Shown one piece after another: positions 18,097-53,118 of a DNA stretch of 64,000 bases. The notes below the pieces were generated by a model that made no database searches, was not told the origin of the DNA, and worked only from the letters and a program-made list of their open reading frames with translations. A program made the translations under genes and the position numbers. The stretch lies in the NCBI RefSeq assembly GCF_000488215.1, contig NZ_KI530712.1, positions 562,881-626,880 of the forward strand, written 5' to 3'. How positions within the stretch are numbered: position 1 is the first letter of the stretch; the number at the start of each line of letters is the position of its first letter. The stretch is from Acinetobacter nectaris CIP 110549 (GTDB lineage Bacteria > Pseudomonadota > Gammaproteobacteria > Pseudomonadales > Moraxellaceae).

Positions 18097-18620
18097 TACT
18101 TTAATGATTTTAGCTCCATTGCATACAAGCCCATAATACGATGCACACCATCTGTAATATGCTTAGAAGATAATGTAGCTCCACTAATATTTTGAATATC
18201 TTTACCTAGAGTAATTGCAGAGTTAGATGTTTTACCAACAAATTGATCGCGCCAAGAAGCATTTCTCACTTGAGCACCATAAGTTTCGGTATATTCCATA
18301 ATTTCAATTTGCTTAATTGAACCATTCGCTTTAATACCTACTGCATAAGTAATCATTTCGTGCTTCCCCAACACCTGATCAATGATCAACCAATCACCCT
18401 CTTTCGTTTTAAAAATTTGATCAGTTTTCAATGGGTAAGTAATACCTGATAGTTCTTTTAATTTCTTTTCTTGGTCTTTTGTTAGCTGAATATTGTGTTG
18501 GATCAGCGTCTGATGAGGAAAAATAACTTGTTTTGCCTGTTCAGTTGTTAAATATGTTGTTGCATGCGAAACAAGTGGTGTAACGAGTAATGTTGCACCC
18601 ACAACAGATGTCCACTTCAT
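18096..18620 (-). CDS. Exported FMN-binding protein
   Basis: A 174-residue protein with an N-terminal signal sequence (MKWTSVVGATLLVTPLVSHA) and a C-terminal FMN-binding domain like that of NqrC/RnfG. The flavinylation motif DIQNISGATLSS is at 141-152, with Thr149 the expected acceptor of FMN. YAVGIKANGSIKQIEIMEY (92-110) is the usual strand pair of this fold. It is first in the operon FMN protein-apbE-cytochrome and its promoter faces a Fur box. I infer a periplasmic flavoprotein that takes electrons from the small cytochrome and passes them to an acceptor, possibly ferric iron. Confidence 0.88.
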   Translation of the reverse strand: MKWTSVVGATLLVTPLVSHATTYLTTEQAKQVIFPHQTLIQHNIQLTKDQEKKLKELSGITYPLKTDQIFKTKEGDWLIIDQVLGKHEMITYAVGIKANGSIKQIEIMEYTETYGAQVRNASWRDQFVGKTSNSAITLGKDIQNISGATLSSKHITDGVHRIMGLYAMELKSLK

Positions 18621-18697
18621 AATAATCCCCTATTTTTCGAGGCTTTATTTTTATCATTTCATCTTAAATATTTCTTAAATTTAATAATAATTTAAGG

Positions 18698-18716
18698 AAA
18701 AGTGATAATCATTATA
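18698..18716. promoter_or_regulatory. Fur box in the divergent promoter region
   Basis: Thirteen consecutive bases TGATAATCATTAT at 18703-18715 match the Fur consensus GATAATGATAATCATTATC; the whole 19-base window matches at 15 positions. It lies 29 bases before the outer-membrane protein gene and 78 bases before the FMN-protein gene, so it can control both. Confidence 0.8.
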
Positions 18717-18744
18717 TTTTAGTTTAACGAAAGAGCAACAATTA

Positions 18745-19674
18745 ATGCACATGCATTCTGTAAAAAAAACAATATTGTCTCTATGTTTGGCACTTGGTAT
18801 GGGGCAAGTATCTCATGCAGGTGAAAGTTTATTCGGATTTGCGTATACACTTGATACGCAACCTAAGGGGACTTTCGAATTTGAACAACGCTTCGATGTA
18901 ACACATGGTCAAAGAACAGGTACATATAATCTAGGCCTGTATCGATCGGAAATTGAATATGGTCTAACAGATGATCTTCAAGTTGCTGGTTATTTAAATG
19001 CTTACTCTATTCAAGCAAAGAAAAACTACCTCAATTCAGACATGTGCGACGGTCATACGGATAGTGAGCCATGCACAGCGGGCTTCGGTGTACCTACAAG
19101 TGCTCATGACAATGATTCTTATAATAAATTCAAAATTGATGGCGGCTCTTTAGAGCTAATTTGGCGTATATTAAACCCTGTTACTTCTCCTGTTGGTGTT
19201 GGTTTATATCTTGAGCCCACTTTAGGCCAACTAGAAGATTCTCTTGAAATGCGATTACTTTTACAATCAAACTTCTTAGATGACCGTCTGATTCTTACCC
19301 TTAACTTCCTATATGAACCTGAAAAAGAAAAATACGATGATGCAGGTACAATTCGTAATTCAATGGGTGATATTCTCTACGGTGCGAGTTACCGTTTCGC
19401 ACCAAATTGGTCTGCAGGTATTGAAGGGCGATATCATACCGACCACGATGGCTACTTCTGGAACACACACACTCAGACGGCTCATTTTCTTGGTCCAACC
19501 GTACATTATGCAAGTGAAAAATGGTGGGCAACAGCTACTTGGCGTTATCAGCTAGAAGGTAAATGTTATGCTGATGGTACAGCTGACTGCTCAGTACGCA
19601 CTGGCTATGACAAAGTATCTGATAACCATGGTAAAAATCAATTTGTCTTAAAATTTGGTTTCCCATTCGGTTAA
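18745..19674 (+). CDS. DUF6662-like outer-membrane protein
   Basis: A 309-residue protein with a signal peptide (VKKTILSLCLALGMGQVSHA; the start could be Met3) followed by alternating amphipathic strands rich in aromatic residues and a last segment ending in KFGFPFG, as expected for an outer-membrane beta-barrel. The opening GESLFGFAYTLDTQPKGTFEFEQ matches what I know as DUF6662. Two Cys pairs (MCDGHTDSEPC and KCYADGTADC) probably form disulfides in surface or periplasmic loops. Divergent from the FMN/ApbE/cytochrome operon across a Fur box, so it is likely made under iron limitation. Cargo or role unknown. Confidence 0.82.
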   Translation: MHMHSVKKTILSLCLALGMGQVSHAGESLFGFAYTLDTQPKGTFEFEQRFDVTHGQRTGTYNLGLYRSEIEYGLTDDLQVAGYLNAYSIQAKKNYLNSDMCDGHTDSEPCTAGFGVPTSAHDNDSYNKFKIDGGSLELIWRILNPVTSPVGVGLYLEPTLGQLEDSLEMRLLLQSNFLDDRLILTLNFLYEPEKEKYDDAGTIRNSMGDILYGASYRFAPNWSAGIEGRYHTDHDGYFWNTHTQTAHFLGPTVHYASEKWWATATWRYQLEGKCYADGTADCSVRTGYDKVSDNHGKNQFVLKFGFPFG

Positions 19675-19682
19675 TACAGCGA

Positions 19683-19715
19683 CCTAGCATAAGAAGTAAA
19701 AATTCTTATGCTAGG
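19683..19715. terminator. Hairpin between convergent genes
   Basis: CCTAGCATAAGAA and its exact complement TTCTTATGCTAGG enclose a 7-base loop. The 13-bp stem is strong but no T-run follows on either side, so it may act as a 3' stabiliser or Rho-assisted terminator for both genes. Confidence 0.6.
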
Positions 19716-19721
19716 ACTAGT

Positions 19722-20612
19722 TTATGGTAAATCGATACCCTTATCTGTTGGCTGCTTTTCAAGTGCTTTAAATGATGCGCTTGGTGGAACATTTAAATTA
19801 ATATTGCTTGGCTTAATTGGCGATTGAAACCACTTTTGATAAAGCTTACCCATCTCACCTGAATTCCACATATGAGTAATGACTTGATCAGCGATTGCTT
19901 TTAATTTAGGGCTATTTTTCGCCATCATTATACTATATGGCTCTTTTGAAAGCCCACCATCAAGTATTTTATAATCTGTAGGATTCTGCGATTTTGCAAT
20001 AAATGTAACCAATGTGTTTTCATCCATGGCCCAACCTACAACTCTATCTGAAGATAGGGAATCAAATGATTCTTTATTATCTGCACCATAGAGATTCTTA
20101 AAATTTAGAACATCTGTACGTTTTAATGACATCATATATTTTTCAGATGTTGTACCTTTAGTTAAAACTACAGGTCTGCCTATCAAATCATCTAACTTAT
20201 TTATATGTGATTTCTTTTTCACAGCCACACCGACATCCGTTACAAAATAAGCAGTTGAAAAGTCAACTATTTCATCACGTTGTATAATATGTGTTGTTGT
20301 TCCACATTCTAAGTCAATATTACCTGTTATTAAATCTGGAATACGTGTCATTGGATGTTCAACTTTATATTCAACATTTAAGTTAGGCATTTGAAGTGTT
20401 TTCTTAATTTCGTCTGCAACATTATGACAAACATCTATTGCATATCCGACAGGCTTTCCATCTATAGAATAGGAAATAGGATCTGCATTTTCTCTGTAGC
20501 CAATTGTTATCTTTCCTGATGCTTTAATTCTATCTAACGTGCTTTCAGCATTAACCTGTGTTGCCCCCAAAGTAAAAGCCAAAACAATACTAGTTAAAAT
20601 AGTATTTTTCAC
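19722..20612 (-). CDS. Amino-acid ABC transporter substrate-binding protein (GltI-like), orphan
   Basis: A 296-residue periplasmic solute-binding protein of family 3: signal peptide MKNTILTSIVLAFTLGATQVNA, then STLDRIKASGKITIGYRENADP, ECGTTTHIIQRDEIVDFS, LTKGTTSEKYM and a C-terminal MWNSGEMGKLYQKWF. This looks like the glutamate/aspartate binders of the GltI type. No permease or ATPase gene is next to it. It is the last gene of the minus-strand nitrogen cluster, 108 bases after the GntR gene, so it may be co-regulated and may use the permease encoded at 28630-29520 or a distant transporter. Confidence 0.88.
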   Translation of the reverse strand: MKNTILTSIVLAFTLGATQVNAESTLDRIKASGKITIGYRENADPISYSIDGKPVGYAIDVCHNVADEIKKTLQMPNLNVEYKVEHPMTRIPDLITGNIDLECGTTTHIIQRDEIVDFSTAYFVTDVGVAVKKKSHINKLDDLIGRPVVLTKGTTSEKYMMSLKRTDVLNFKNLYGADNKESFDSLSSDRVVGWAMDENTLVTFIAKSQNPTDYKILDGGLSKEPYSIMMAKNSPKLKAIADQVITHMWNSGEMGKLYQKWFQSPIKPSNINLNVPPSASFKALEKQPTDKGIDLP

Positions 20613-20720
20613 TTATTTCCCCTTAAAATATAAAAAACAGCTTATTGCTATAAAATTAAGTGCAATATAATAATATAGATATATTAAAGAAATATATATA
20701 TTCAAAATAAAATGTTATTT

Positions 20721-21413
20721 TTATAAAATTTGATGGTTATCTAACATTTGTAATGTAATTTTTTTAACTTCATCACGACTTTTTTTAATATGCAAAATGA
20801 GTTGACTCTGAGCTTCTTTTTTATTTTTTTCAAGAATAAGCTGTAGAATATTTTGATGCTCAAAATAAGTAGCTTCTACTCGATAATCCTTAGAAAAATC
20901 AAGCCTACGTATAATTCTAATTTTTTCACTTAGCTCTCTGTGAATACGTGCCATTTCCTGATTTCCAGCTGCACGTACTAGACTACAGTGAAACTCTTCA
21001 TCTTGCTGTGCCAATTTTTTTAAATCTTTTAGATAGTGCTCAGGCTGAATACACCATTTTTCTTTTAAAATTTCCAACTCAACTGATAACTCATTTTCAG
21101 AAGCACATAAAGTTTCAATTGCTGTACTCTCCAATATTATGCGTACATCATATAATTCTTCGTAGTATCTAAAATTTAAAGGCCTAACCTGCCAACCTCT
21201 TCGAAACCCAACATCTACATAACCCTCTTGTTGTAAACGATAAAGCGCTTGTCTTACAGGGGTTCTGCTCACTTTATACACTTCAGCAATTTCTGATTCT
21301 GTAAAACGTTCACTCGGCATCAATTTAAAATCAAAAATATCATTTTTAATTCTTTGATAGACAAGCTCAGATAAATTATCTGAGCGTTGTATAAGCGTTT
21401 CTTTTTGTCTCAT
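20721..21413 (-). CDS. GntR/FCD family transcriptional regulator
   Basis: About 230 residues from the chosen start (MRQKETLIQRSDNLSE). N-terminal winged helix with LSELVYQRIKNDIF, ESEIAEVYKVSRTPVRQAL and LQQEGYV; C-terminal all-helical FCD ligand domain (from LYDVRIILESTAIE), in which Asp and His residues usually hold a metal and a small carboxylate. The start at 21413 overlaps the urea carboxylase stop as ATGA, so the regulator is translationally coupled to the enzyme. It most likely controls this cluster and itself; a GTATAC-centred palindrome at 26873-26884 is a good operator candidate. Confidence 0.93.
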   Translation of the reverse strand: MRQKETLIQRSDNLSELVYQRIKNDIFDFKLMPSERFTESEIAEVYKVSRTPVRQALYRLQQEGYVDVGFRRGWQVRPLNFRYYEELYDVRIILESTAIETLCASENELSVELEILKEKWCIQPEHYLKDLKKLAQQDEEFHCSLVRAAGNQEMARIHRELSEKIRIIRRLDFSKDYRVEATYFEHQNILQLILEKNKKEAQSQLILHIKKSRDEVKKITLQMLDNHQIL

Positions 21414-24400
21414 GATGACTCCATATAAATCAGTGGCTCTCCACCATGTACTGTCTGACCTGAACGACAAACAATTGCTTTGATCTGACCATCTTCCGAT
21501 GCATATACTGGCAATTCCATCTTCATTGCTTCAATAATTGCAATAGTGTCATTCTTCTTCACATATTGACCTTCATGAACCAATACTTTCCAAATATTTC
21601 CCGTCATAGAGGCATTCACTGCTGTATATTGACTAAAGTCTTGAGCAATATATCTATCTTGAATGATTTCATTTGAGGAAACAGTCTCATCTTTCCAATG
21701 CGCCACTTCAGTATGAAATGCTATTTTTTGTTGCTTCTGAAATGTATTAATACTGTCTTCTTCATCCTTTAAAAACTGACAATACTCCGCATAATCAAAT
21801 GTTGTTTCCTCAATATCAATGTGTATAAGACCATTTTCAAAATCGGAACGCCATTGATTTAACTCAGTTTCAGATACTTCAAAGAACTTGATTTGATCAA
21901 AAAACTGTAAAAACCATTCTTTATTTTCAAATTGCTTATTTTTCTTAAATTTATTCCAAATTGGTAAAGTACGACCAACCAGCTGATAACCACCAGGCGA
22001 ATCCATGCCATAAATACACATGTACATTCCACCTATTCCCACAGTGCCTTCAGCTGTAAATGTGCGTGCAGGATTATACTTCGAACTGAGTAAACGATGG
22101 CGAGGATCAATAGGCATAGCGCAAGGTGCTGTCAAATAGACATCTCCCAAACCAAGAATTAAATAGTTTGCTTCAAATAAAATATCCTTTACCTGATCCC
22201 TATGCTCTAAGCCATTAATTCTCTGTATAAAATCTACATTATTAGGCAACCAAGGTGCTTTTGCACACACACTTTCTTGATAACGTTCTACAGCACCTAA
22301 AGTGGTACTGTCTTCAAATGCCATTGGTAAATGTACAATACGAGAAGGGATTTTAATTTGGCTTAAATCCCCTATTCTATCTTCTAAAGAGATGAGTTCC
22401 TGAATCAACTTAGCTTGTGAAATGATTAAACCATCATATTTAATTTGGAGAGATCGAACCCCAGGTGATAACTCTAATACACCAGCAAGATCTGATTCAC
22501 GAATCATTTGAATAAGCTGATGTACACGTAAGCGGAGTGATAAATCAAGAACATTTTCTCCGTATTCGAGCAATATATAACTGTCTCCTGCCTGACGATA
22601 AATTGCTTTTGGAGAAACAGATGTCGCTTCCTTCTGTGCCAATATTGTTATTCCCAAACTTTCCTCAATACAATCCTTTAAGCCCACTTGACTGTCTGAG
22701 AAATTTTGAATAACTGCTAACCGATCTCTTTCAAGTTGATTTGCTTGATTTACCGTTAGAGGATAAAAAGAAATTTTATCATCTGCCTTTAACTGTCCAA
22801 TCTTCCATAGTTCTGCTTTTGCAATAGTTACTGGACAAACGAATCCTCCTAAGCTTGGTCCATCTTTTGCCAAGATCACAGGAAAATCTCCAGTAAAATT
22901 AATTGCTCCAATTGCATACTCACAGTCATGCACATTCGATGGATGAAGCCCTGCTTCTCCACCATTTTCTCGTGCCCAACTCGGTGTTGGTCCTGTTAAA
23001 CGAATACCTAAACGATTTGAGTTGAAATGAACGGTCCATTCCGATGCAAAAAATTCTTCAATATATTCTTGTTTAAAAAATTCTGGCGCACCATGTGGCC
23101 CATATAACACACCAATTCGCCACTCATTACCATAATCAGGAATAAGTATTTCTGACATTGCTTGAGGTGCTTGATACGTTACCTCCATACCATGAATGAG
23201 CGATTCTGGATGTCCCATTTTAATCGTATCTCCCATGCGGAGTGTACGACCTGCATGACCGCCAAAGTTTCCAAGTGCGAAGGTTGAACGGCTTCCCAAA
23301 TATAATGGAACATCTAAACCATGACGCACAGATAAATACGTGCGACAGCCTGAAGAAACGTAACCCAATTCAAGTCTTTGCCCAGCTTTGATATTAATAG
23401 GTTGCCAAAAATTAATTTTATGTCCATCTAGTGTTGCTTCACAAGGAGCACCTGTTAAAGCAATCACTGTATCGGCATGAAACTTAAGTATTGGACCTTT
23501 AAGTGTAAACTCAAAACCTGCCGCACTTTCTAGATTACCAACAATTTGATTGGCAAGTCGAAATGCAAAATCATCCATAGGTCCGGAAGGTGGTACACCA
23601 ATATCCCAATAACCAACACGTCCTGGATAATCTTGTATAGAACTTAACGTACCCGCATCAATTACTTCAATAGCCCTAGGTGTATACACAAAACTATCGA
23701 GCATTCTTGTCCATATGCTCATGTCTTTAAAACGATGGTCTGAAATAATTTCTCGTGCATAATCTAAATTGGTACTGATTCCATTTAGACGAGTTTCTGC
23801 AAGTGTCTGCTTAAGTTTTGCAATGGCTTCGGCTCTTTCTTTCCCATGAACAATAATTTTTGCAATCATTGGATCAAAATATTGAGAGATTTCAGTACCC
23901 GTTTTTACCCAAGTGTCTACTCGAACATCTTCTGGAAAATACACCTCTGTGAGTACACCCGGACTCGGTTGAAAGTTTCTTACTGGATCTTCTGCATAAA
24001 TACGTACTTCAATGGCAGCGCCTTGTGGTTTAAGCTGTGCCAAATACTCCCAATCAATGTCATCACAAGAAGCGACTTTAAGCATATATTCAATAAGATC
24101 TAAGCCTGTCACCATCTCTGTAACAGGATGCTCAACTTGCAACCGTGTATTTACCTCTAGAAAGTAAAACTCATCTCGAATGGCATCATAAATAAACTCT
24201 ACAGTGCCTGCGCTTCGGTAATTTACAGACTGACCAAGTTGTATCGCTGCTTGATGTAGTTTCTGACGCGTATCTTCTGGCAAATTTGCAGCTGGCGTTT
24301 CTTCGACAATTTTTTGGTTACGGCGTTGCAGTGAACAATCCCTCTCTCCAAATGCAACCACTTGTCCTTGACCATCTCCAAAAATTTGAACTTCAACATG

Positions 24401-25018
24401 TCTTGCTTTATCTATAAAACGCTCTAAAAATACACCAGCATCTTTAAAAAATTGCTCACCTAAGCGCTTAACACTTTCATAGGCATCGATTAGCTCTTGT
24501 TCATTATCACAGCGTGTTAATCCAATTCCCCCACCTCCTGCTGTACTTTTAAGCATAATTGGATAACCAATTTCTTCAGCAGATGCCTTTGCTTCATCTA
24601 GACTATTTAATAGCCCTGTTCCTGGTGTCATTGGTACATTGGCAAGGGCAGCCAACTCACGTGCACGATGCTTTAATCCAAACTCTAAAATTTGATGTGC
24701 TGTCGGTCCCATAAATGCAATATTATTTTCTTCACATGCACGAGAGAACTCAGCACTTTCAGATAAAAATCCATAACCTGGAAAAATTGCTTGTGCATCT
24801 GTTTTATGTGCAATATGAATAAGTTTTTCAATGTTTAAATAAGTATCAGAAGGTTTTATTCCCTCTAAAGAAATTGCAATATCGGCATCTAAAACATGTT
24901 GTGCATAACGATCTGTATCTGAATACACAGCAACACTTCGAATCCCCAATTTTTTTAATGTACGAATTGCTCTAACAGCAATTTCACCACGGTTTGCAAC
25001 GAGAACAGTATGAAACAT
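21410..25018 (-). CDS. uca: Urea carboxylase (biotin-dependent)
   Basis: Carboxylates urea with bicarbonate and ATP to allophanate. The 1202-residue chain has, in order: biotin carboxylase (about 1-450; MFHTVLVANRGEIAVRAIRT, the ATP-grasp loop STAGGGGIGL, EVNTRLQVEHPVTE), a KipA/AHS2 domain (from about 465; SIQDYPGRVGYWDIGVPPSG), a KipI/AHS1 domain (about 820-1040; GDSYILLEYGENVLDL and the PGGYQLVGRT loop), and a C-terminal biotinyl domain with EAMKME, biotin Lys1166. Followed after allophanate hydrolase by 14 bases. Close relatives are guanidine carboxylases, but the accessory carboxyguanidine deiminase genes and a guanidine riboswitch are absent here, so urea or another ureido compound is more likely. 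Confidence 0.93.
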   Translation of the reverse strand: MFHTVLVANRGEIAVRAIRTLKKLGIRSVAVYSDTDRYAQHVLDADIAISLEGIKPSDTYLNIEKLIHIAHKTDAQAIFPGYGFLSESAEFSRACEENNIAFMGPTAHQILEFGLKHRARELAALANVPMTPGTGLLNSLDEAKASAEEIGYPIMLKSTAGGGGIGLTRCDNEQELIDAYESVKRLGEQFFKDAGVFLERFIDKARHVEVQIFGDGQGQVVAFGERDCSLQRRNQKIVEETPAANLPEDTRQKLHQAAIQLGQSVNYRSAGTVEFIYDAIRDEFYFLEVNTRLQVEHPVTEMVTGLDLIEYMLKVASCDDIDWEYLAQLKPQGAAIEVRIYAEDPVRNFQPSPGVLTEVYFPEDVRVDTWVKTGTEISQYFDPMIAKIIVHGKERAEAIAKLKQTLAETRLNGISTNLDYAREIISDHRFKDMSIWTRMLDSFVYTPRAIEVIDAGTLSSIQDYPGRVGYWDIGVPPSGPMDDFAFRLANQIVGNLESAAGFEFTLKGPILKFHADTVIALTGAPCEATLDGHKINFWQPINIKAGQRLELGYVSSGCRTYLSVRHGLDVPLYLGSRSTFALGNFGGHAGRTLRMGDTIKMGHPESLIHGMEVTYQAPQAMSEILIPDYGNEWRIGVLYGPHGAPEFFKQEYIEEFFASEWTVHFNSNRLGIRLTGPTPSWARENGGEAGLHPSNVHDCEYAIGAINFTGDFPVILAKDGPSLGGFVCPVTIAKAELWKIGQLKADDKISFYPLTVNQANQLERDRLAVIQNFSDSQVGLKDCIEESLGITILAQKEATSVSPKAIYRQAGDSYILLEYGENVLDLSLRLRVHQLIQMIRESDLAGVLELSPGVRSLQIKYDGLIISQAKLIQELISLEDRIGDLSQIKIPSRIVHLPMAFEDSTTLGAVERYQESVCAKAPWLPNNVDFIQRINGLEHRDQVKDILFEANYLILGLGDVYLTAPCAMPIDPRHRLLSSKYNPARTFTAEGTVGIGGMYMCIYGMDSPGGYQLVGRTLPIWNKFKKNKQFENKEWFLQFFDQIKFFEVSETELNQWRSDFENGLIHIDIEETTFDYAEYCQFLKDEEDSINTFQKQQKIAFHTEVAHWKDETVSSNEIIQDRYIAQDFSQYTAVNASMTGNIWKVLVHEGQYVKKNDTIAIIEAMKMELPVYASEDGQIKAIVCRSGQTVHGGEPLIYMESS

Positions 25019-25032
25019 TTGAAACCCCTTTT

Positions 25033-26859
25033 TTATGCGCGATGTGATGAATTGATGTGTTGAATATAGGCACGCCAGCCGCCAAATTGAGTAATATTTT
25101 CTGCATTTTCTAAGCCGTAGGGCTCACAAATAAATCCTTTTACCCATCGACCATCTTCAAGCTCCACATTTCCAATACCCAAAGGCGTAGGAACCTCTGC
25201 AACAAACTCACCAAATCTCGCAATAGGAACATCCCAAAGTTCGACAACAATAGAACTTCCCCCGTCAGTATCTCTAGCGAGTCCGGGTTTTGGTGGTACA
25301 GTGCCATTTAATGCATAAAGTGAATAATTTGAAGCTGTTTTAGTCACCTCACGGCGTACAGCTTGACGTGATGTTAATTGGAAATTTAAAGGCATTCCTG
25401 TTAAATGAGCACCAACCACTGCAACACGAATATGATGTTTAGAAATCGGTAAATCCTTTGCGATCACATCATAGGGTTTACGAGTTGCTCCAAGTTGAAG
25501 TGCAAGATGGTTCTGCCAACGTATACCAAAGTCTGCCAATGCAGTGTCATACCAAGCAGGTGCAATACAAGTAATGCCAAAAGGTAAACCATCTTCTCTA
25601 AAATGAGAAGGCAAAGCCAAAGCACTCAAATCTGCCAAATTGGTAAAGTTGGTATATGTACCAAACTGAGCATTTAACTCAATCGGATTGTTTTTCATCT
25701 GCTCAATGGTATGAATTGTGGGTGAAGTCGGCACAAAGAGTGCATCTACTGTCGCCAATACCTTTTGAATCTGACGGGTTAAGTCTTGCTTTAAATACTC
25801 CGCTTTGTAAGCATCTACTGCGGTATAGTCATACCCTTTTTCAACAATCTCTAAAACAACTGCATCAAAGTCATGCTTATCATTTTCTAAAAGGTGTTCT
25901 ACAACCGTTGTTCTTTCTGCAACCCAAGCACCCTGATAAAGCTGTTTTGCCAACCTTTCAAAAGGTGAAAAATCTATTTCAACAATAGATACACCCAAAG
26001 ATTTTAATGTCTCAATAGATGTATTAAATGCTTTTTCCGCGTATTGATCACCAAAAAACTCTAGAATATGAGGAATAGCAAATGTTAGATTTGATGAAAA
26101 GCTTGCAGGTGCTGTATTTGGGTTGTTTCTCGAGTAACTATCCTTCATATCATATGCTTCCATAAAATCTGCAACGTATGCTGCATCTTGGACAGTCAAA
26201 GCAAATATAGAAATACAATCGATAGTTTTACATGCAGGTAGTAAACCAAAATTAGAGAAACGACCTTTTGTAGGTTTTAAACCCACAATATTATTAAATC
26301 CTGCAGGAACACGCCCAGAGCCTGCGGTATCTGTACCTAAAGCAAAGGGCACAATTCCTCTTGCAACGACGCTTGCCGACCCCGAACTTGAGCCACCACT
26401 TACATACTGTTTATTAAAGGTATTAGGAACTGCTCCATAAGGAGACCGTGTGCCTACTAAACCTGTTGCAAACTGGTCTAAATTAGTTTTTCCCACAACA
26501 ATTGCACCCGCTTTCTTTAATGCTCTAACTATAGTTGCATCTTCTAAAGCGACCTCTTTAAGTACACGACATGCAGCCGTCGATACAAAACCTTCTACAT
26601 CAATGTTATCTTTTACTGCAAAAGGAATCCCATACAGCGGAAAATGTGTGTATATATTTTCAGAATCGTCTATGTCAGAGTTTTTAATATCTTGAATCTG
26701 AGCTTGTATTTGCTCATCCGATGCAATTGAAATCCATGCTGTATCTTCTGAATTAAAATTTTGAATAATTTGAATTAAATCTTCTATTTTTATTTCTTTA
26801 CTTTTATAGGCATGTTGCCAATCTTGGATTGTCCATCCGCAAATCTGATCTAATGTCAT
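25033..26859 (-). CDS. atzF: Allophanate hydrolase
   Basis: Hydrolyses allophanate to ammonia and CO2, the second step after urea carboxylase. The 608-residue protein has an amidase-signature domain (about 1-450) with the catalytic Lys in FAVKDNID, the cis-Ser in the GGSSSGSASVVARG loop and TDTAGSGRVPAGF, and a C-terminal domain (about 475-600; IRVAVVGAHLTGMPLNFQL, TVPPKPGLARD) as in AtzF and yeast DUR1,2. It starts the enzyme operon atzF-uca-gntR, behind a 102-base gap with a sigma54-like promoter and a palindrome. Confidence 0.95.
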   Translation of the reverse strand: MTLDQICGWTIQDWQHAYKSKEIKIEDLIQIIQNFNSEDTAWISIASDEQIQAQIQDIKNSDIDDSENIYTHFPLYGIPFAVKDNIDVEGFVSTAACRVLKEVALEDATIVRALKKAGAIVVGKTNLDQFATGLVGTRSPYGAVPNTFNKQYVSGGSSSGSASVVARGIVPFALGTDTAGSGRVPAGFNNIVGLKPTKGRFSNFGLLPACKTIDCISIFALTVQDAAYVADFMEAYDMKDSYSRNNPNTAPASFSSNLTFAIPHILEFFGDQYAEKAFNTSIETLKSLGVSIVEIDFSPFERLAKQLYQGAWVAERTTVVEHLLENDKHDFDAVVLEIVEKGYDYTAVDAYKAEYLKQDLTRQIQKVLATVDALFVPTSPTIHTIEQMKNNPIELNAQFGTYTNFTNLADLSALALPSHFREDGLPFGITCIAPAWYDTALADFGIRWQNHLALQLGATRKPYDVIAKDLPISKHHIRVAVVGAHLTGMPLNFQLTSRQAVRREVTKTASNYSLYALNGTVPPKPGLARDTDGGSSIVVELWDVPIARFGEFVAEVPTPLGIGNVELEDGRWVKGFICEPYGLENAENITQFGGWRAYIQHINSSHRA

Positions 26860-26872
26860 GATTGAATCCTAT

Positions 26873-26884
26873 CTTGTATACAAG
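26873..26884. promoter_or_regulatory. Palindromic operator candidate CTTGTATACAAG
   Basis: A perfect 12-base palindrome centred on GTATAC, 14 bases before the allophanate hydrolase start and just past the expected transcription start of the sigma54-like promoter. GTATAC-centred dyads are common GntR/FCD operators, and a GntR/FCD gene is in this operon. A related site ACCGTATACAAG (9 of 12 identical) lies at 26931-26942, 58 bases away, on the other side of the promoter. Confidence 0.6.
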
Positions 26885-26897
26885 TTATATTTTTAAT

Positions 26898-26915
26898 AAG
26901 CACAATATGTGCCAA
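26898..26915 (-). promoter_or_regulatory. Sigma54-type (-24/-12) promoter of allophanate hydrolase
   Basis: On the minus strand TTGGCACATATTGTGCTT has GG and GC dinucleotides exactly 10 bases apart with a good -24 box (TTGGCAC) and a fair -12 box (GTGCT instead of TTGCT). The predicted start is about 28 bases before the ATG. RpoN/NtrC control would suit nitrogen scavenging. Confidence 0.6.
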
Positions 26916-26930
26916 ATAATTAAATGAATA

Positions 26931-26942
26931 ACCGTATACAAG
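26931..26942. promoter_or_regulatory. Second, imperfect GTATAC site
   Basis: ACCGTATACAAG shares GTATACAAG with the perfect palindrome at 26873-26884 and lies upstream of the -24 element, so two bound regulator dimers would flank the promoter. Confidence 0.45.
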
Positions 26943-26961
26943 TTGAGTATGAAAAATTAAG

Positions 26962-28560
26962 TTACTTTTCCATCGTTTTACAAAGAGAACAAATCACACC
27001 ACGATGTTTATGTGAATACATGACATCTGGTCTTTCATATTCTTGATCGCACGCTAAACACATATACGATGTTGCTGTTGGTGCCCCCTCTTCATCAAAT
27101 CTTGGCTCATGAATACCATCGTGTTTTTGTTTAATATAGTATTTTCCTTTTGTTAATAACCCAATGACGGGTGTAAGAACAAAACCGACAACTAAAGCAA
27201 TTAAAGGTGAATATGAAGATAAAAAACTGCCAAGAAACCCAAAAAATGCCAATAAAGATAAACCAGCAGCCATCAGAAAGGAAACTAATCCCACAGGATT
27301 AAAGTCGTATAACATTTCACGTCTATATTCAGGCTCTTTTGGAGATAGCTTAAGTAAGTATTTATTTACTGCAATATCTGTTGCAACGACTACAACCCAA
27401 GCAATTGCAAAGTTAGAATAAAAGCCTAAAATCTTTCCTAATACTGCAAACATATTGCCTTCCATAAGTACTAAGGCAACAGCTAAATTAAATAAAACGA
27501 ATATAATTCTTCCAGGATACTTTTTACTTACGCGTGTGTATGCACTGGTCCATGCGAGAGAGCCTGAATAAGCATTCGTAACATTAATTTTAATTTGTGA
27601 AATGACAACTAAAATGACCGCCAGTGCAAGTGCTAGCCAACCCGGCAACATATCATGAAATGCTGCATTGAACTGTTGTACAGGTTCAGTGGCATCAACA
27701 CCCGGAATCTTTGTAAATAGATAAAACCCTAAAAATGCACCAATAACTTGCTTGATTGCACCTAATATTACCCATCCTGGTCCTGCAGAGATCACTGCCA
27801 TCCACCAAGATTTACTATTTTCTTTCGTTTTTGCAGGCATAAAACGTAAGTAGTCAATTTGTTCACCAATTTGCATAATTAAAGATAAACAAATACCTGC
27901 ACCTAGCATAATTGCCGCAAGATCGCCTGGTGCATAACCTTTTTGACCTGCAAATATAGTAAATGATTGAACTAGACTTGGCTCTTTATAGATAAGATAA
28001 GCCACAGGGCCAATCATAAGAATAAGCCAAATGGGCGTTGTCCATACCTGTAACTTACTGAGGGCTTTCATGCCATAAATCACAAGAGGAATAACCATAA
28101 ATGTCGAAATAAGATATCCAAGCCATACTGGAATACCCAATCCCAACAATAGACCTTGCGCCATAATAGATCCTTCAAGCGCAAAGAAAATAAATGTAAA
28201 ACTCGCAAAAATGATACTTGTAATTACAGATCCAAAGTAGCCAAAACCTGCACCACGTGTAATTAAATCTAAATCGATGTTATAACGCGCCGCATAATAA
28301 GACAGTGGGATACCTGTGATAAAAATAATGATTGCGGCAAACAAAATAGAATAGATCGCATTGGTTGTTCCATAAGTCATACCAATACTGGCACCAATAG
28401 AAAAATCTGCTAAATATGCAATTCCTCCAAGCGCAGTAATCGCAACCACCTTAGGACTCCAACGGCGGAAGCTATATGGTGCATAACGTAAGGTATAGTC
28501 CTCTAGTGTTTCATTGGCTGCTTTATTTTGCCGTTCTTCGACATACTCATATTTTTCCAT
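26962..28560 (-). CDS. NCS1-type permease (cytosine/purine/allantoin family) with C-terminal zinc ribbon
   Basis: A 532-residue membrane protein with about twelve helices. The NCS1 pattern is visible early (DYTLRYAPYSFRRWSPKVVA, then GASIGMTYGTTNAI and GFGYFGSVI), with long hydrophobic helices up to about residue 470. The last 60 residues are soluble and contain two CxxC pairs (MCLACDQEYERP and VICSLCKTMEK), a zinc-ribbon or rubredoxin-like knuckle unusual for NCS1 transporters. NCS1 proteins carry nucleobases, allantoin, hydantoins or thiamine with Na+ or H+; the place between ABC genes and allophanate hydrolase points to urea, a ureide or another nitrogen compound. It has its own sigma54-type promoter. 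Confidence 0.85.
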   Translation of the reverse strand: MEKYEYVEERQNKAANETLEDYTLRYAPYSFRRWSPKVVAITALGGIAYLADFSIGASIGMTYGTTNAIYSILFAAIIIFITGIPLSYYAARYNIDLDLITRGAGFGYFGSVITSIIFASFTFIFFALEGSIMAQGLLLGLGIPVWLGYLISTFMVIPLVIYGMKALSKLQVWTTPIWLILMIGPVAYLIYKEPSLVQSFTIFAGQKGYAPGDLAAIMLGAGICLSLIMQIGEQIDYLRFMPAKTKENSKSWWMAVISAGPGWVILGAIKQVIGAFLGFYLFTKIPGVDATEPVQQFNAAFHDMLPGWLALALAVILVVISQIKINVTNAYSGSLAWTSAYTRVSKKYPGRIIFVLFNLAVALVLMEGNMFAVLGKILGFYSNFAIAWVVVVATDIAVNKYLLKLSPKEPEYRREMLYDFNPVGLVSFLMAAGLSLLAFFGFLGSFLSSYSPLIALVVGFVLTPVIGLLTKGKYYIKQKHDGIHEPRFDEEGAPTATSYMCLACDQEYERPDVMYSHKHRGVICSLCKTMEK

Positions 28561-28597
28561 GCTTCTTTAACTCAACTCAAAGAATGAGCCATTAAAA

Positions 28598-28615
28598 ATG
28601 CAATGAATATGCCAA
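28598..28615 (-). promoter_or_regulatory. Sigma54-type (-24/-12) promoter of the NCS1 permease gene
   Basis: On the minus strand TTGGCATATTCATTGCAT has the -24 TTGGCA and -12 TTGCA boxes, with GG and GC separated by exactly 10 bases, close to the consensus TGGCAC-N5-TTGCW. The expected transcription start is about 28 bases before the permease ATG. Confidence 0.72.
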
Positions 28616-28629
28616 TCTTTAAATCTAAA

Positions 28630-29520
28630 TTAATGGGTACTTTTTCGCCAAAAAAATAAGTACTTAATCATTTTGTGCTGTTTCTTTTGATTTCGTGCCA
28701 ATTTTGCTTCAATAAAATACTGCACAATTGAAAATACACTTGTAATAATGGCATACCATACAGCGGCAACCATAAGCATTGGAATAATTTGCTGATTACG
28801 GTTATACACCATCTGAACCGTATAAAATAATTCAGGCATTGCCAAGACATAAACAATAGATGTGCCCTTAGAAAGGCTAATACATTCATTAACCAAAGCA
28901 GGTAAAATTCCACGAATTGCTTGAGGGAAAATAATTCGATACGTTTTATGCCACCATGAAAGACCTAAAGCAGCAGCCGCTTCGAACTGCCCTTTATCTA
29001 CCGATAAAATACCCCCACGTATGATTTCAGCAGTATATGCGCTTTGTACAATTGCCAATCCAATTAAGGCAGTTGTAAATTGATCTAATGCATTTACCGT
29101 TTTATAACTTGCAAAAACTACTTCTGTGAATGGCACTGCAATCGCTATACGCTCATATAAATATGAAAAATTATATAAAACAATCAGTACCACCAATAAA
29201 GGCACCGATCGAAACAACCAAATATAAGCCCATGCCACCCCCCTTACCAACCAAGAAGTAGATAAGCGCATCATCGCTAAAATCCCACCCAAGAAAAAGC
29301 TTAAAAACATTGCAGAGAAAGTAAGCTTTAACGTAAGGTATAAACCACGTATTACAGCGGGATCAAAAAACCATAACCTAAAGACAGACCATTCCCATTT
29401 GCTATTAAAAAATACAGATTCAAGAAGAATTAATATAAAAACAACCGAAATAAAACTACCTACATAACGTAGTGGATATTTTGCTTTTACAACTTTATAA
29501 GATGAAAATACTTTAGCCAT
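28630..29520 (-). CDS. Amino-acid-type ABC transporter permease
   Basis: A 296-residue inner-membrane subunit of the polar amino-acid (HisM/GlnP) type with about five helices. VIRGLYLTLKLTFSAMFLSFFLG and the EAA loop FEAAAALGLSWWHKTYRIIFPQA followed by PALVNECISLSKGTS are diagnostic; the loop contacts an ATPase. No ATP-binding gene is found anywhere in this cluster. The gene starts 9 bases after the solute-binding protein stop, so the pair is co-transcribed. The ATPase must be supplied from elsewhere, or the operon has lost it. Confidence 0.93.
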   Translation of the reverse strand: MAKVFSSYKVVKAKYPLRYVGSFISVVFILILLESVFFNSKWEWSVFRLWFFDPAVIRGLYLTLKLTFSAMFLSFFLGGILAMMRLSTSWLVRGVAWAYIWLFRSVPLLVVLIVLYNFSYLYERIAIAVPFTEVVFASYKTVNALDQFTTALIGLAIVQSAYTAEIIRGGILSVDKGQFEAAAALGLSWWHKTYRIIFPQAIRGILPALVNECISLSKGTSIVYVLAMPELFYTVQMVYNRNQQIIPMLMVAAVWYAIITSVFSIVQYFIEAKLARNQKKQHKMIKYLFFWRKSTH

Positions 29521-29529
29521 TTTATTCCT

Positions 29530-30507
29530 TTACTCACCAAATCCCAATGGATTGATTTCTGAATGTTTTAAAACCTCATCGGCCAATCCCCAACGATGCA
29601 AGACTTCGTACATTTTTCCATTTTGAATGTCACCATTAACCGCTTTTTGTATTGCGTTCGACAACTCTGAATTTTTCTTCAATGTCACTGCAATATCAGC
29701 AGTTTTAGGATATCCACCATTTAGATACCCCACTCTCTTTATTTTTGCGCCATTTTCCATCCGCCATGTTCCCGATGGGTTTGGTACAAAATAGACATCT
29801 GCTCGACCCGCCTCTAAAGCCAAAATAGCCATGGCTTTATCTTCAAAATAAACAGGAACCGTCTCAGGCAAGCCCGCTTTTTTATTTTCATCAATCCAAT
29901 TTAATAATATTTTTTCCTGATTCGTCCCAGCACCAACAATTACCCTTTGACTTGCAACATCTTTCGCACTTTCAATTTTTTGAATTGGACTGTCAACAGA
30001 AACAAATAGTCCTAAGCTATCTTTTCTATAGGTGACAAAGTCAAAGCGTGCTTTTCGTGCTTTACTTACTGAAATATTAATCAGTGCAGCATCATATTTT
30101 CCAGAATCAATACCAAGTGGCCAATCTTCCCAAGAGGTTGGAATCAGCTTTAACTTCAATCCTAGGCTGTCTGCAATTAAACGAGCAACATCAACCTCTA
30201 TCCCAATCGGTGTTTTATTATCCAAAGCAAGCGTTGTAATAGGTGGTGAGTTCCCTGAGATAATCGCAACTGTAAAAAAACCATCGTTCACAAGTGGATG
30301 ATTTTTTGGAATGGCTTGGATTGCATCTTGATTGGATGTGGTATGAATTGGAATCGTATTTCGCTCTAGCAACTCTCTCATATGCAAAGGCATTGTTTTT
30401 AGCGTTGCTTCTGAAATATCGCTTGATGTTGATTGTTCACATCCAGCAAGTAAGACAATTGCAATTAAAGTTGATATATAAGCGATATGCTTGATTTTAA
30501 ATGACAC
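29530..30507 (-). CDS. Lipoprotein solute-binding protein of an ABC transporter
   Basis: About 325 residues, family-3 solute-binding fold. The chosen start is GTG at 30507, preceded by AAGGA with 7 bases of spacing, giving a tidy lipoprotein signal (MSFKIKHIAYIST..VLLAGC). The ATG at 30531 lies in a hairpin and has no ribosome-binding site. After the lipobox come FTVAIISGNSPPITTLALDN, GIEVDVARLIADSLG, DAALINISVSKARKARFDFV and DVYFVPNPSGTWRM. The ligand is unknown; the context (TonB receptor before it, permease after it, ureide enzymes) suggests a nitrogen-rich small molecule larger than urea. Confidence 0.88.
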   Translation of the reverse strand: MSFKIKHIAYISTLIAIVLLAGCEQSTSSDISEATLKTMPLHMRELLERNTIPIHTTSNQDAIQAIPKNHPLVNDGFFTVAIISGNSPPITTLALDNKTPIGIEVDVARLIADSLGLKLKLIPTSWEDWPLGIDSGKYDAALINISVSKARKARFDFVTYRKDSLGLFVSVDSPIQKIESAKDVASQRVIVGAGTNQEKILLNWIDENKKAGLPETVPVYFEDKAMAILALEAGRADVYFVPNPSGTWRMENGAKIKRVGYLNGGYPKTADIAVTLKKNSELSNAIQKAVNGDIQNGKMYEVLHRWGLADEVLKHSEINPLGFGE

Positions 30508-30523
30508 AGCATTATCCTTATTG

Positions 30524-30558
30524 TATCTCATGCAACATGATCAACATTGCATGAGATA
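30524..30558 (-). repeat. 12-bp inverted repeat between the TonB receptor and binding-protein genes
   Basis: TATCTCATGCAA (30524-30535) and its exact complement TTGCATGAGATA (30547-30558) flank an 11-base loop that itself contains TGATCA. In RNA this is a strong hairpin just before the ribosome-binding site of the binding protein; no T-run follows, so partial termination or mRNA processing/stabilisation is more likely than full termination. Confidence 0.6.
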
Positions 30559-30570
30559 TCATATGTAAAC

Positions 30571-32967
30571 CTACCAATGATATGTAACACGTGTATAGTA
30601 AAATGCACCATTGGCACCAAATGGTGAAAATAAACTATATTGAATACTGCCGCCTGTAGAACCTGCTGTCGTTATATCTTTGTCTGGATAAACATTGGTA
30701 ATATTGTCCCCACCCAGCTCAAACTTCCAATTGTTATATTTATACGATAGTGCTAAATCTAACAGCCAATTTGCACTATACTTTTGATCGAACGCTGGGC
30801 CACTATTACTATATGTGGTAAAGCTACCATAACGTGTTACATTCGCATTAATGCCCCAATTCCCAATCGTATAGTCATTGGTAATACTGAGTTTATGCTT
30901 TGGTGTACTTGCTGACAAAATACCATACTGCTCACGACGATCTATTCTGTTTAGATTCACATTTAATGCATTTAAGATTGCTGGATTTGCTCTTACTTTT
31001 GTCACTTTATTTTCATTATAGTTATAAGCAACAGATGTATTTAAGTGGCCATATGGCAAGTCATTCCAAGCATAGTTTGCAACAAGATCAATACCTTTAG
31101 TGCGTGTATCAGCAGCATTATTAAAGAATCTTACAGTACTAAAATTAATGTCTGTAATGCCATTTTGTGCCAAATATGAACGTACAGTGCTACTACTTGC
31201 ATCTAGATTTGATGAAAGGCTAATGCGATTTTTAATATCAATTAAATAAGCATCTAAAGTTAAATAAAAATTATCTGTTGGTGTTAAAACCACCCCTAAA
31301 CTATAGTCACGAGATGTTTCTGGTTTTAAATCTTCTGCACCAAGAAGGCGAGCAACCTTAGAATCCGTTGGGAACGTTCCTGCTTCTACGACACTTTCAT
31401 TAATTAACTGAGATGAAGTTTGTGCATAGTGCGTTTGCGCTAGACTTGGAACACGAAATCCAGTAGAAACACTTCCTCTAAATGCAACAACAGGGCTTTG
31501 TGCATATCTTAAAGACAAAGAACCATTATTGGTACTTCCAAAATCATTATAATACTCATAACGATATGCAGCAGACCCAGATAATTTTTCAGTAATATTT
31601 GCCTCTAAGTCTAAGTATGCGGCAAGACTGTCTCTAGACCATGTTCCAGCATCTGCATCTCTAAAACCTGCTAAACCTGATGACCCTGTTTTATAATAAG
31701 ACAGCGGCTCTCCTGCTTTAATCTGATAATTTTGATTAAGATACTGTAATCCTGTCGAGAACGTTAATGGACCATCTAAAAAGCCCAAAGTAAAGTCACG
31801 AGATAAATCAAAATTTAATGCAGTTTGGTCATTAACAAGCATGCCATTATAGAAACGTGTTGGTGTATAACCAAAATCTTTATATGCACTAACATTAATC
31901 GTATCCGTATCTACCGTATATCTATTTCGACCAAAGTTAATCGATGCATCATAACGCCAATTATCAACTTCACCTTTTACACCAGTCACTGCAGCAAGAT
32001 CTTCAGACTGACCAAAAATTAATGGTAAATAACCATTTGGATAAATCGACGGTACATTATTTGTACCATTACTTAAGCGGTAAAATGCCGTCGACTCACC
32101 ATCTTTACGACTATATGTTCCAAAACCATACAACGTTGCATAATCTGAAAGATCATATTCACTATTAATTGCAAGTTTTACAGTATCCTGTTTTGGATCA
32201 CCATAACGGAACGTACGCTGTCCATATGTTGTGGCATTAATATCACGCTTATCTAAGCCAGCACGGTTCGTATAGCCATCATTTTCAAACTCGCCTGCAA
32301 CAGTAACAAATCCTTGATTATTCAGATTCACACCACCTGAAACAAAGCTTTCCTTTTGAGCTCCATCCCCTTGAGCATACTGTCCATAACGTACGCCTGC
32401 CTCACCATGCTTTGTATCTGTTTTTAATATAATATTAATGACACCCGCAATTGCATCTGAACCATAACGTGCTGATGCCCCATCTTTTAATACTTCAATA
32501 CGTGCCACGGCTGACATTGGAATTGCATTTAAATCTGAAGGAGATGAGCCTCGACCGATTGCGCCCCCCATATTAATAAATGCACTAGTATGACGGCGCT
32601 TCCCATTTACTAGAACAAGAACCTGATCTGGCGATAAGCCTTTTAATTGTGCAGGACGTACAAATTCAGCACCATCTGCAACTGAAGGTCTTGGAAAATT
32701 AATAGATGGAATAATCTGCGCAAGCGCTGTACCAAGCTCACTCGTCCCTGTACGCTCTTGTAAATCTGCTGCTGTGATCACATCAATAGGTTGAGCAGAC
32801 TCAAGTGCTGAACGATTAACTTTTCTTGTACCTGTAACAATAATTTTATTTAATGACTGAACTTTATTGTCTGATTGAGTATCAGTGTTGTTTTCTGCAT
32901 GCGTAATTTGATAAATACCACTAAGCACCAATAATGTAATTAGATTAACTTTAAACTTATTATTCAT
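30571..32967 (-). CDS. TonB-dependent outer-membrane receptor of the nitrogen cluster
   Basis: A 798-residue receptor: signal peptide (LITLLVLSGIYQITHA), TonB box region NKIIVTGTRKV, plug domain (about 45-175; VLVLVNGKRRHTSAF, IEVLKDGASARYGSDAIAGVINI) and a 22-strand barrel ending in the aromatic FYYTRVTYHW. The sequence type is that of receptors for non-iron substrates rather than TIGR01783 siderophore receptors, and no Fur box precedes it. It is first in the run of minus-strand genes leading to allophanate hydrolase and urea carboxylase, so it probably imports the nitrogenous substrate through the outer membrane. Its own promoter is in the AT-rich region above 32967. Confidence 0.9.
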   Translation of the reverse strand: MNNKFKVNLITLLVLSGIYQITHAENNTDTQSDNKVQSLNKIIVTGTRKVNRSALESAQPIDVITAADLQERTGTSELGTALAQIIPSINFPRPSVADGAEFVRPAQLKGLSPDQVLVLVNGKRRHTSAFINMGGAIGRGSSPSDLNAIPMSAVARIEVLKDGASARYGSDAIAGVINIILKTDTKHGEAGVRYGQYAQGDGAQKESFVSGGVNLNNQGFVTVAGEFENDGYTNRAGLDKRDINATTYGQRTFRYGDPKQDTVKLAINSEYDLSDYATLYGFGTYSRKDGESTAFYRLSNGTNNVPSIYPNGYLPLIFGQSEDLAAVTGVKGEVDNWRYDASINFGRNRYTVDTDTINVSAYKDFGYTPTRFYNGMLVNDQTALNFDLSRDFTLGFLDGPLTFSTGLQYLNQNYQIKAGEPLSYYKTGSSGLAGFRDADAGTWSRDSLAAYLDLEANITEKLSGSAAYRYEYYNDFGSTNNGSLSLRYAQSPVVAFRGSVSTGFRVPSLAQTHYAQTSSQLINESVVEAGTFPTDSKVARLLGAEDLKPETSRDYSLGVVLTPTDNFYLTLDAYLIDIKNRISLSSNLDASSSTVRSYLAQNGITDINFSTVRFFNNAADTRTKGIDLVANYAWNDLPYGHLNTSVAYNYNENKVTKVRANPAILNALNVNLNRIDRREQYGILSASTPKHKLSITNDYTIGNWGINANVTRYGSFTTYSNSGPAFDQKYSANWLLDLALSYKYNNWKFELGGDNITNVYPDKDITTAGSTGGSIQYSLFSPFGANGAFYYTRVTYHW

Positions 32968-33228
32968 TGATCATACATTTTTAAAGGAATTGTTTACTTA
33001 TGTTATTATTTTTTAAATTCGTGTAAATTATTTTTTAGTCCTATCTATATGAAAAAAATTTATTTGGAATTTTTATAATATATAAATTATTTATCCATTT
33101 AAATATTTCATGCTATGCTACAAATAAAAATACTTTTGATTGATTTTAGAATAAATCATATAAAAATATTAAATATACTTATACTAATAAAAATACAGCC
33201 TCTAATACAGAATATAAATATGACATGA

Positions 33229-34093
33229 AAAATTAATTCATTAGTCTTTTTAAAGAAAGAAATATATTCTTAGTTGCTCTATGTATATTAGTACATCAAG
33301 CACTAGTTGCATCATCAATTGTATTTCCAACAAAACTCTTAATCAATTTTCAAGAGCAGATCTTTTACAAAAATTACTTATTCCTATATCTTAGATCTAT
33401 GATACTACCTTATGCATCTAGATTTATTTCCTATATATTTCTAGAAAATCTATTAATTTAGCACGTTCTAGGTATTTTATTTTAGTCAAAAATAGTGAAA
33501 GCATAAAAATATAGATTTTAGAAATAAAGAAGCAAAAGAGGAAATAAATACGATTCTTTCTAGAAATTCATTCTCAATTATAAATTCAATTATTTTTTTG
33601 TGCATGACTTTTTATCACTACTCTATAATAGTCTATTCAGCTTTATCATTATATATTACATACTTCCGTTAATATCTTTAGATTATATAATTACAAGCAT
33701 ATTAAGCTTTTTCATCAACCAACAAATTTTTGAAAATATTGAAGATATGTATGCTTCCTTAATCTCTAAGAATAATGGAAGATTCACTATAACAGGTAAT
33801 AATGGGAGTGGAAAAACAACTTTTTTACATGATCATCTTGGAAGATAAGGCAGTTATTATCCAAACAGATCTGAATAATTTACTTTGGAAAAGTGATGTA
33901 AATTTAGATCATTTATCAACTGGCCAACGTATAAAAAATATTTTAGAAGAAGTGTTATATAGTGAAGAAAGCTTCATACTTCTAGATGAATGGAATGCAA
34001 ATCTTGATACTAAAAATAAAATTCAAACCAATGATCTTATCAACAAAATAAGTAAATATAAAACAGTTGTTGAAATTACACATCATCATTAAA
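33229..34093 (+). pseudogene. Decayed ABC exporter (cyclic-peptide/siderophore exporter-like)
   Basis: Translated pieces in several frames line up as one ABC half-transporter: SLFKERNIFLVALCILVHQA and FPTKLLINFQEQ (from 33243, first membrane helices), a stop, NKEAKEEINTILSRNSFSII and more membrane helix (33511-33669), another stop, then GRFTITGNNGSGKTTFLHDH with Walker A (to about 33840), a frameshift, and STGQRIKNILEEVLYS, FILLDEWNANLDTKNK (Walker B) and VVEITHHH up to 34092. The LLDEW..NLD signature resembles SyrD/PvdE-type cyclic-peptide exporters. At least three stops or frameshifts and very high AT mean it is dead. Next to a siderophore uptake locus it may be what is left of a siderophore export gene. 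Confidence 0.8.
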
Positions 34094-34164
34094 AATGATA
34101 GATATTTCATCCAAATTACTTATATTAAGTGATATGGATCTACACCATTGACACAAACACTCAT

Positions 34165-34183
34165 TTAAATGAAAATCATTATC
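34165..34183 (+). promoter_or_regulatory. Fur box before the AraC regulator
   Basis: TGAAAATCATTATC at 34170-34183 matches 13 of 14 bases of the Fur consensus right part, and 15 of 19 over the whole box; 29 bases before the ATG of the regulator. Confidence 0.75.
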
Positions 34184-34212
34184 AAATAGTTTCTATTTTT
34201 TGGTGAAATTAA

Positions 34213-35139: not shown

Positions 35140-35143
35140 ATAT

Positions 35144-36256: not shown

Positions 36257-36270
36257 AATTAAATCTAAAC

Positions 36271-37488: not shown

Positions 37489-37516
37489 GTGCAACATTCC
37501 CAAGCCAAAAAATCAA

Positions 37517-39670: not shown

Positions 39671-39711
39671 TTTGCGCCTTGTCACTATCCAAGCATAAAA
39701 ATTTATGCAAT

Positions 39712-53095: not shown

Positions 53096-53118
53096 TTTCT
53101 TTCCTTGCTCTTTATGTT

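Follow-up and report, generated by a model that had tools for sequence, protein, structure and literature searches.

A urea-degradation operon directly behind a probably unrelated TonB importer remnant in Acinetobacter nectaris

We examined a 64,000-nucleotide stretch of the genome of Acinetobacter nectaris CIP 110549 (contig NZ_KI530712.1, positions 562,881 to 626,880), here called the window, in which genes for a TonB-dependent receptor and parts of an ATP-binding cassette (ABC) importer lie next to genes for urea carboxylase and allophanate hydrolase. The reading that best explains this stretch, and in which we have considerable though not complete confidence, is a mosaic of separate units: a urea operon (unit B, from 28560 down to 20721) directly behind the remnant of an unrelated TonB importer (unit A, 28630-32967), with the gene of a second solute-binding protein (SBP2) as a third piece. 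The first-pass annotation had read all eight genes as one nitrogen-scavenging cluster in which the receptor serves the urea enzymes. The eight open reading frames were confirmed, all on the minus strand between 19722 and 32967, and nitrogen scavenging from urea holds up on the enzyme families, the Asn at the substrate position, the sigma-54-like site and the swap with urease and UrtA, but the coupling to the TonB receptor and the suggestion that the carboxylase accepts a substrate analogue do not. The distinction guards against a false functional coupling, as urea use in this organism would need no TonB receptor. The host genome is a draft assembly of 2.67 Mb in 29 contigs, and the join between the two units sits within a contig of 1.25 Mb.

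Receptor, carboxylase and urease were counted across the genus in a sample of 149 Acinetobacter genomes; the p values given for associations over the genus ignore the kinship of the genomes. An ortholog of the receptor (63-100% identity) is present in 22 genomes and a carboxylase of the same type (type A, 67-100%) in 54, the host included in both counts, and the two lie on one contig within 40 kb of each other in one receptor genome, that of the host alone. Neighbourhoods were compared for 20 of the 21 other receptor loci (the locus of genome G019, on a contig of 12 kb, was left out) and for 20 of the 53 other carboxylase loci. Urea enzymes are absent from all 20 of the former and the receptor from all 20 of the latter, one of which matches the window's second, siderophore-type receptor at 23%. 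Co-conservation of the receptor with the enzymes in other genomes, the test that the first-pass annotation had set beforehand for its own coupling, was thus not found. The receptor stands alone in 15 of its 20 neighbourhoods, in 14 of these behind dapA-bamC-purC (genes named by eye). Its nearest named relatives belong to a flower and bee set of six species that includes the host: A. pollinis (93%), A. apis (80-81%), A. boissieri (80%), A. rathckeae (79-80%) and A. baretiae (75-76%). All five keep the order receptor, first solute-binding protein (SBP1), permease and ATPase, with SBP1 orthologs of 73-88% identity adjoining the receptor and ATPases 80-100% identical to that of A. pollinis, and three of the five have this complete importer with no urea carboxylase (E<=1e-150). 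Beside the carboxylase, an allophanate hydrolase is present in 20 of the 20 neighbourhoods, a GntR regulator in 15 (the A. pollinis stretch stops at a contig edge) and the permease of unit B in 5. Outside the genus, 11 loci with relatives of the receptor (receptor match 32-37% in 10 of them), some of them on short stretches, hold no other gene of the cluster by tblastn at E<=1e-8. Juxtaposition is most likely the best explanation for the presence of receptor and urea enzymes side by side in the host.

Comparison with A. pollinis, the closest relative of A. nectaris according to excerpts of PMC10293439, locates the join. By blastn, window positions 21423-28615 correspond to A. pollinis contig C52 at 94.5% identity and positions 28681-33058, inverted, to contig C53 at 82.6%; the 65 unmatched bases between them are the final 51 bases of the ABC permease gene and 14 intergenic bases. 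The A. pollinis ATPase gene starts where the permease gene ends. No ATPase gene stands beside the host ABC permease, whereas all five nearest relatives have one, so that the ABC system named by the first-pass annotation is present as binding protein and permease only, an incomplete form of the polar amino-acid importer set of binding protein, permease and ATPase. The nearest ATPase in the host genome (71% identity, C1:432424) lies inside a sulfur-type operon described below. Neither a repeat nor a transposase was noticed at the join. SBP2 is, judged by gene order, a third and relocated gene, with a 79% ortholog in A. pollinis that sits between cysS and siderophore genes, and gene order differs between the two species at several points. 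Since the ATPase follows the ABC permease in A. pollinis and unrelated genes precede its urea permease, receptor module and urea genes do not form one operon there. Synonymous divergence (dS) from A. pollinis is 0.14 for the carboxylase, 0.19 for the hydrolase and 0.32 for the permease of unit B, compared with 0.46-1.83 for 13 other genes, and the low values point to a recent exchange of the urea operon between lineages.

The enzymes of unit B are ordinary, and the model scores support urea scavenging. The allophanate hydrolase reaches 783 bits with TIGR02713 (cut-off 511) and the carboxylase 1888 bits with TIGR02712 (cut-off 1304) over model residues 1-1198 of 1201; the latter also has a 51%-type resemblance over its whole length to the enzyme of Kluyveromyces lactis (3VA7, 5I8I; 1370 bits). 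According to excerpts of PMC12186494, guanidine carboxylases have an Asp where urea carboxylases have an Asn. This position (K. lactis 1330), located by alignment with 5I8I, is occupied by Asn in the host and in every one of the 51 type-A entries that contain the motif (some genes were entered twice, and locus L098 gave no motif). The control was a type-B carboxylase of the genus, about 52% identical to the host enzyme, which has Asp in four of four loci; a DUF1989 pair stands beside these genes, confirmed by Pfam in one locus (L170) and by eye in the other three. These comparisons support assignment of the host carboxylase to the urea type, as opposed to an enzyme for an analogue. Three of the guanidine-type loci (L170, L172 and L173) show no allophanate hydrolase reading frame nearby, and may rely on a hydrolase from a urea operon at another locus. 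The first-pass annotation had also remarked that the cluster contains no urea-producing enzyme, and searches with Pfam and NCBIfam agree; elsewhere the genome gave one weak arginase-family match (C12:143332; 23.6 bits with frame neighbours, cut-off 22). As in the two-gene ATP-dependent urea amidolyase pathway, the host enzymes are full length, adjacent and above curated cut-offs; the host differs from that pathway in an NCS1-like permease and a sigma-54-like promoter that replace a Urt-type transporter, and in the unrelated TonB module that adjoins them.

This promoter-like site is unit B's own and lies 54 bases upstream of the start of the NCS1-like permease. Sites scoring at least 21 precede 11 of 13 orthologous permeases, two being without one; among 4000 random segments of 100 bases, taken from loci that themselves hold some such promoters, 8 reach a score of 21 and 2 a score of 22.

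No sequence model of Pfam, NCBIfam or PDB matches the NCS1-like permease (Pfam, including PF02133, was searched at E<=10, and with 12 members of the family at E<=1), and a PDB search with the permease alignment returned only two chance-level matches. The name NCS1, used in the first-pass annotation, is plausible from relatives on plasmids that are annotated 'allantoin permease', 'cytosine permease' or hypothetical, though no family model stands behind it; a kinase domain related to the permease partially matches an annotated cytosine permease, at 25% (E 1e-6). Orthologs of 70-98% identity were found in 47 other genomes of 175 surveyed, 149 of which were also tested for the enzymes. Urease or a type-A carboxylase is carried by 42 of 43 genomes with the permease, compared with 72 of 106 others (p 3e-5), and the permease lies at most 9 kb from urease alpha in 7 of the 43 and at most 6 kb from the carboxylase in 7, the host included. 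Of seven named records from a plasmid collection, six have urease, formamidase or amidase genes near the permease relative: urease in A. ursingii, ureD, A, B, E, F and G in Klebsiella (ureC not listed, an insertion sequence element being present there), formamidase in Moraxella, Tsukamurella and Methylovirgula, and amidase in Arthrobacter. Near the Streptomyces relative, neither a urease nor an amidase gene is annotated. Because its relatives stand beside urease, formamidase and amidase genes, the protein is probably a urea/short-amide permease, through which urea would very probably enter with no TonB receptor needed, and the imported ureide proposed by the first-pass annotation becomes unnecessary.

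In 26 of 48 cases a hybrid kinase adjoins the permease, and the N-terminal part of this kinase is related to the permease itself at 42-45%. Kinases with the related domain adjoin urt genes in Klebsiella and in Shinella, urease in Mitsuaria (three of three regions read) and UrtA in Acinetobacter G040. Hybrid histidine kinases (L188, L189 and L190, and those of Acinetobacter G085, G121 and G040) that stand next to urt, urease or the permease have N-terminal domains 42-49% related to one another and to the permease, and are candidate urea/amide sensor kinases; matches occur in 342 Klebsiella plasmid records, of which one region was read. In G121 the permease ortholog is followed by relatives of a group at window positions 50941-54030 (minus strand) that comprises pqqB, pqqC and pqqE-like genes, named by eye, and a dipeptidase. 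The interest of the permease family lies in its being unmodelled and annotated as allantoin or cytosine permease while probably transporting urea or amides, in its presence also beside urease genes of Klebsiella, and in its twin domain in sensor kinases. A literature search, judged mostly by titles, returned no description of the gene set or of this permease as a urea permease. We give slightly less than even chances to the wider proposal that permease and kinase N-terminal domain belong to an undescribed urea/short-amide transporter-and-sensor family, and that the operon of a nectar species has been placed behind, and is perhaps co-expressed with, a TonB importer for another nutrient.

Across the genus, carboxylase and urease tend not to occur together. 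Urease alpha is present in 65 of the 149 genomes and a type-A carboxylase in 54, with both in 5 and neither in 35 (Fisher p 4e-11). Within the flower and bee set, the host, A. pollinis and A. apis have the NCS1-like permease and the carboxylase and neither urease nor UrtA at the thresholds used, whereas urease and UrtA are present, and the NCS1-like permease and the carboxylase absent at the same thresholds, in A. boissieri, A. rathckeae and A. baretiae. These species appear to swap complete urea systems, urease with UrtABCDE on one side and permease, carboxylase and hydrolase on the other, which share a substrate and differ in both enzymes and transporter. Such swapping bears on nitrogen scavenging in nectar.

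The cargo of unit A is the weakest step of our account. Paralogues of its SBP1 (45-52%) and permease (64-71%), and of the ATPase (71-75%), occur in eight loci of eight genomes together with a GNAT acetyltransferase, two LLM monooxygenases and an M20 deacetylase (families assigned for the locus in the host's own genome and for GNAT). Seven of the eight loci include the ATPase, that of A. apis being without it, and a receptor of 34-36% adjoins five of them. Another SBP1 paralogue is found by itself. The host's own operon of this type, with SBP1, permease and ATPase paralogues, is at G000:C1:431000-438000 (L137), and a similar one is annotated in Pantoea. Of five further loci with 36-38% receptors, four hold SsuA- and SsuD-like genes (named in one locus). 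Excerpts of PMC9706529 and PMC12757645 describe the salvage of S-modified cysteines as acetylation, oxygenation and deacetylation, and the scm (yxe), ytn and yha operons resemble these loci in that the SBP1, permease and ATPase paralogues lie with GNAT, LLM monooxygenase and M20 deacetylase genes. The orthologous module of the flower and bee species differs from those operons in having transport genes only, plus a TonB receptor; no acetyltransferase, monooxygenase or deacetylase lies beside the host module or its five orthologous modules. By analogy, this suggests an organosulfur cargo resembling S-modified cysteine. A siderophore or iron cargo was considered and set aside on a weak test: the receptor matches 19 NCBIfam models at E<=0.001 and none at its cut-off, siderophore and haem models among those not reached, and the best upstream match to a Fur box has 12 of 19 bases, compared with 11-13 in 20 orthologous upstream regions, with no background comparison.

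Gene content, the lack of linkage elsewhere, the join, the promoter-like site, the Asn residue and the swap pattern can be read from sequence, whereas the transported substrates, the sulfur role, the sharing of an ATPase and the regulation belong to what we propose. On this proposal, urea passes the outer membrane by way of general porins and the inner membrane by way of the NCS1-like permease. Urea carboxylase would then convert urea, ATP and bicarbonate to allophanate, which allophanate hydrolase would split into ammonia and CO2. Unit B, with permease, hydrolase, carboxylase and GntR regulator under its sigma-54-like promoter, would in this way provide ATP-dependent urea degradation and stand in for urease and Urt uptake in A. 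nectaris. As a remnant, unit A would depend on an ATPase from another system, such as the one with 71% identity encoded in the sulfur-type operon.

Several findings weigh against the mosaic reading or parts of it. The carboxylase and receptor of A. pollinis are on separate contigs and could be chromosomal neighbours, though not one operon, and the contrast in dS is not absolute, cysS having a value of 0.46. The family of the NCS1-like permease lacks a model, and the structure that AlphaFold2 predicted from one sequence has a mean predicted local distance difference test score of 44, which is unusable. The sulfur assignment rests on paralogues (SBP1 45-52%, receptor 34-38%), and the neighbourhoods of the orthologs are without a sulfur enzyme. 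The sigma-54-like site retains its core, but ABC permease coding sequence now occupies the region upstream, where an activator site may have been lost. No terminator-like site is reported between the ABC permease and unit B, so that read-through from the receptor promoter, and with it co-expression, is possible in this species. Finally, receptor and carboxylase are positively associated across the genus, the carboxylase being present in 14 of the 22 receptor genomes and in 40 of the 127 others (p 0.007).

The open passage between the units, together with their tight same-strand join, would also suit a recent functional fusion in which the urea operon responds to the same nutrient signal as the receptor module, with scavenging of nitrogen and of sulfur or another nutrient co-induced in nectar. 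The receptor module has been under purifying selection since the split from A. pollinis (dN/dS 0.04-0.08), but this ratio mostly reflects the time before the join, the arrangement is known from a single species and the loss of the ATPase suggests an accident; we regard such a fusion as improbable. Less probable again is the single system of the first-pass annotation, in which a ureide or another nitrogen-rich compound enters through the receptor and ABC parts and is degraded to urea or allophanate by the adjacent enzymes. Common strand, short gaps, lack of a terminator-like site and the genus-wide association would all agree with it, as would the scarcity of nitrogen in nectar given in excerpts of PMC11774029. 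However, no other genome examined has the linkage, three species keep the receptor module without a carboxylase, the cluster lacks both a urea-producing enzyme and the ATPase, and unit B comes with a promoter-like site and a permease of its own. An assembly error at the join, which a draft of 29 contigs and the comparison of one genome of the species might allow, is about as doubtful and if anything more so, given the position of the join inside a 1.25 Mb contig, the lack of a repeat or transposase there and an order that departs from A. pollinis at several points rather than one. A cluster importing guanidine for a guanidine carboxylase is scarcely credible and was rejected: excerpts of PMC12186494 report that many genes annotated as urea carboxylase encode guanidine carboxylases, and the enzyme is of the same superfamily, but the host has Asn for Asp, no DUF1989 deiminase pair among its cluster genes by Pfam (a search confined to the cluster) and no guanidine riboswitch, as there is no Rfam match at E<=1 in window positions 18000-36000.

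Table 1. Genes and sites of the mosaic stretch, in window coordinates
Feature	Position	Strand	Basis
TonB-dependent receptor, 798 aa, unit A	30571..32967	-	Pfam Plug and barrel (PF07715, PF00593); 93% A. pollinis ortholog outside any urea operon
SBP1, family-3 binding lipoprotein, unit A	29530..30531	-	PF00497 (SBP_bac_3)
ABC permease, cystine-permease-like, unit A	28630..29520	-	PF00528; best NCBIfam model PRK15100, under cut-off
Join of units A and B, 65 bases	28616..28680	.	blastn against A. pollinis, no match
Sigma-54-like promoter of urea operon, TGGCATATTCATTGCA	28599..28614	-	Score 22 of 23.5
NCS1-like permease, proposed urea/short-amide permease, unit B	26962..28560	-	Gene linkage; no family model
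Allophanate hydrolase, unit B	25033..26859	-	TIGR02713 and AH_C domain
Urea carboxylase, unit B	21410..25018	-	TIGR02712; biotin motif EAMKM close to C-terminus
GntR/FCD regulator, unit B	20721..21470	-	PF00392 and PF07729
SBP2, Glu/Asp-type binding protein, third locus	19722..20612	-	PF00497
Terminator-like hairpin, 13 pairs, past SBP2	19683..19715	. (reported on + strand)	Terminator scan

Some details qualify these assignments. The lipobox-like LLAGC of SBP1 was spotted by eye; the best NCBIfam model of SBP2, of glutamate/aspartate type, is under its cut-off; and the TTG start of the GntR regulator overlaps the 3' end of the carboxylase gene, so that the true start may be further in. The terminator scan gave 8 terminator-like sites compared with 7.1 in shuffled sequence, which makes the consensus alone weak.

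Around the stretch, a remnant riddled with stop codons at window positions 33200-34100 (plus strand), between the receptor and an AraC-type gene at 34213, includes an exporter-like ABC ATPase-like stretch. A siderophore-type receptor (TIGR01783 above cut-off) and two further genes at 35144-39685 (minus strand) are syntenic in A. pollinis, where the siderophore-receptor region has two genes, phosphopantetheinyl transferase-like and thioesterase-like by eye, with no match in the window. On the other side, a DUF6662 protein (partial model) is encoded at 18745-19674 (plus strand); its 95% counterpart in A. pollinis lies beside the receptor module, and it is the module that is oppositely oriented there.

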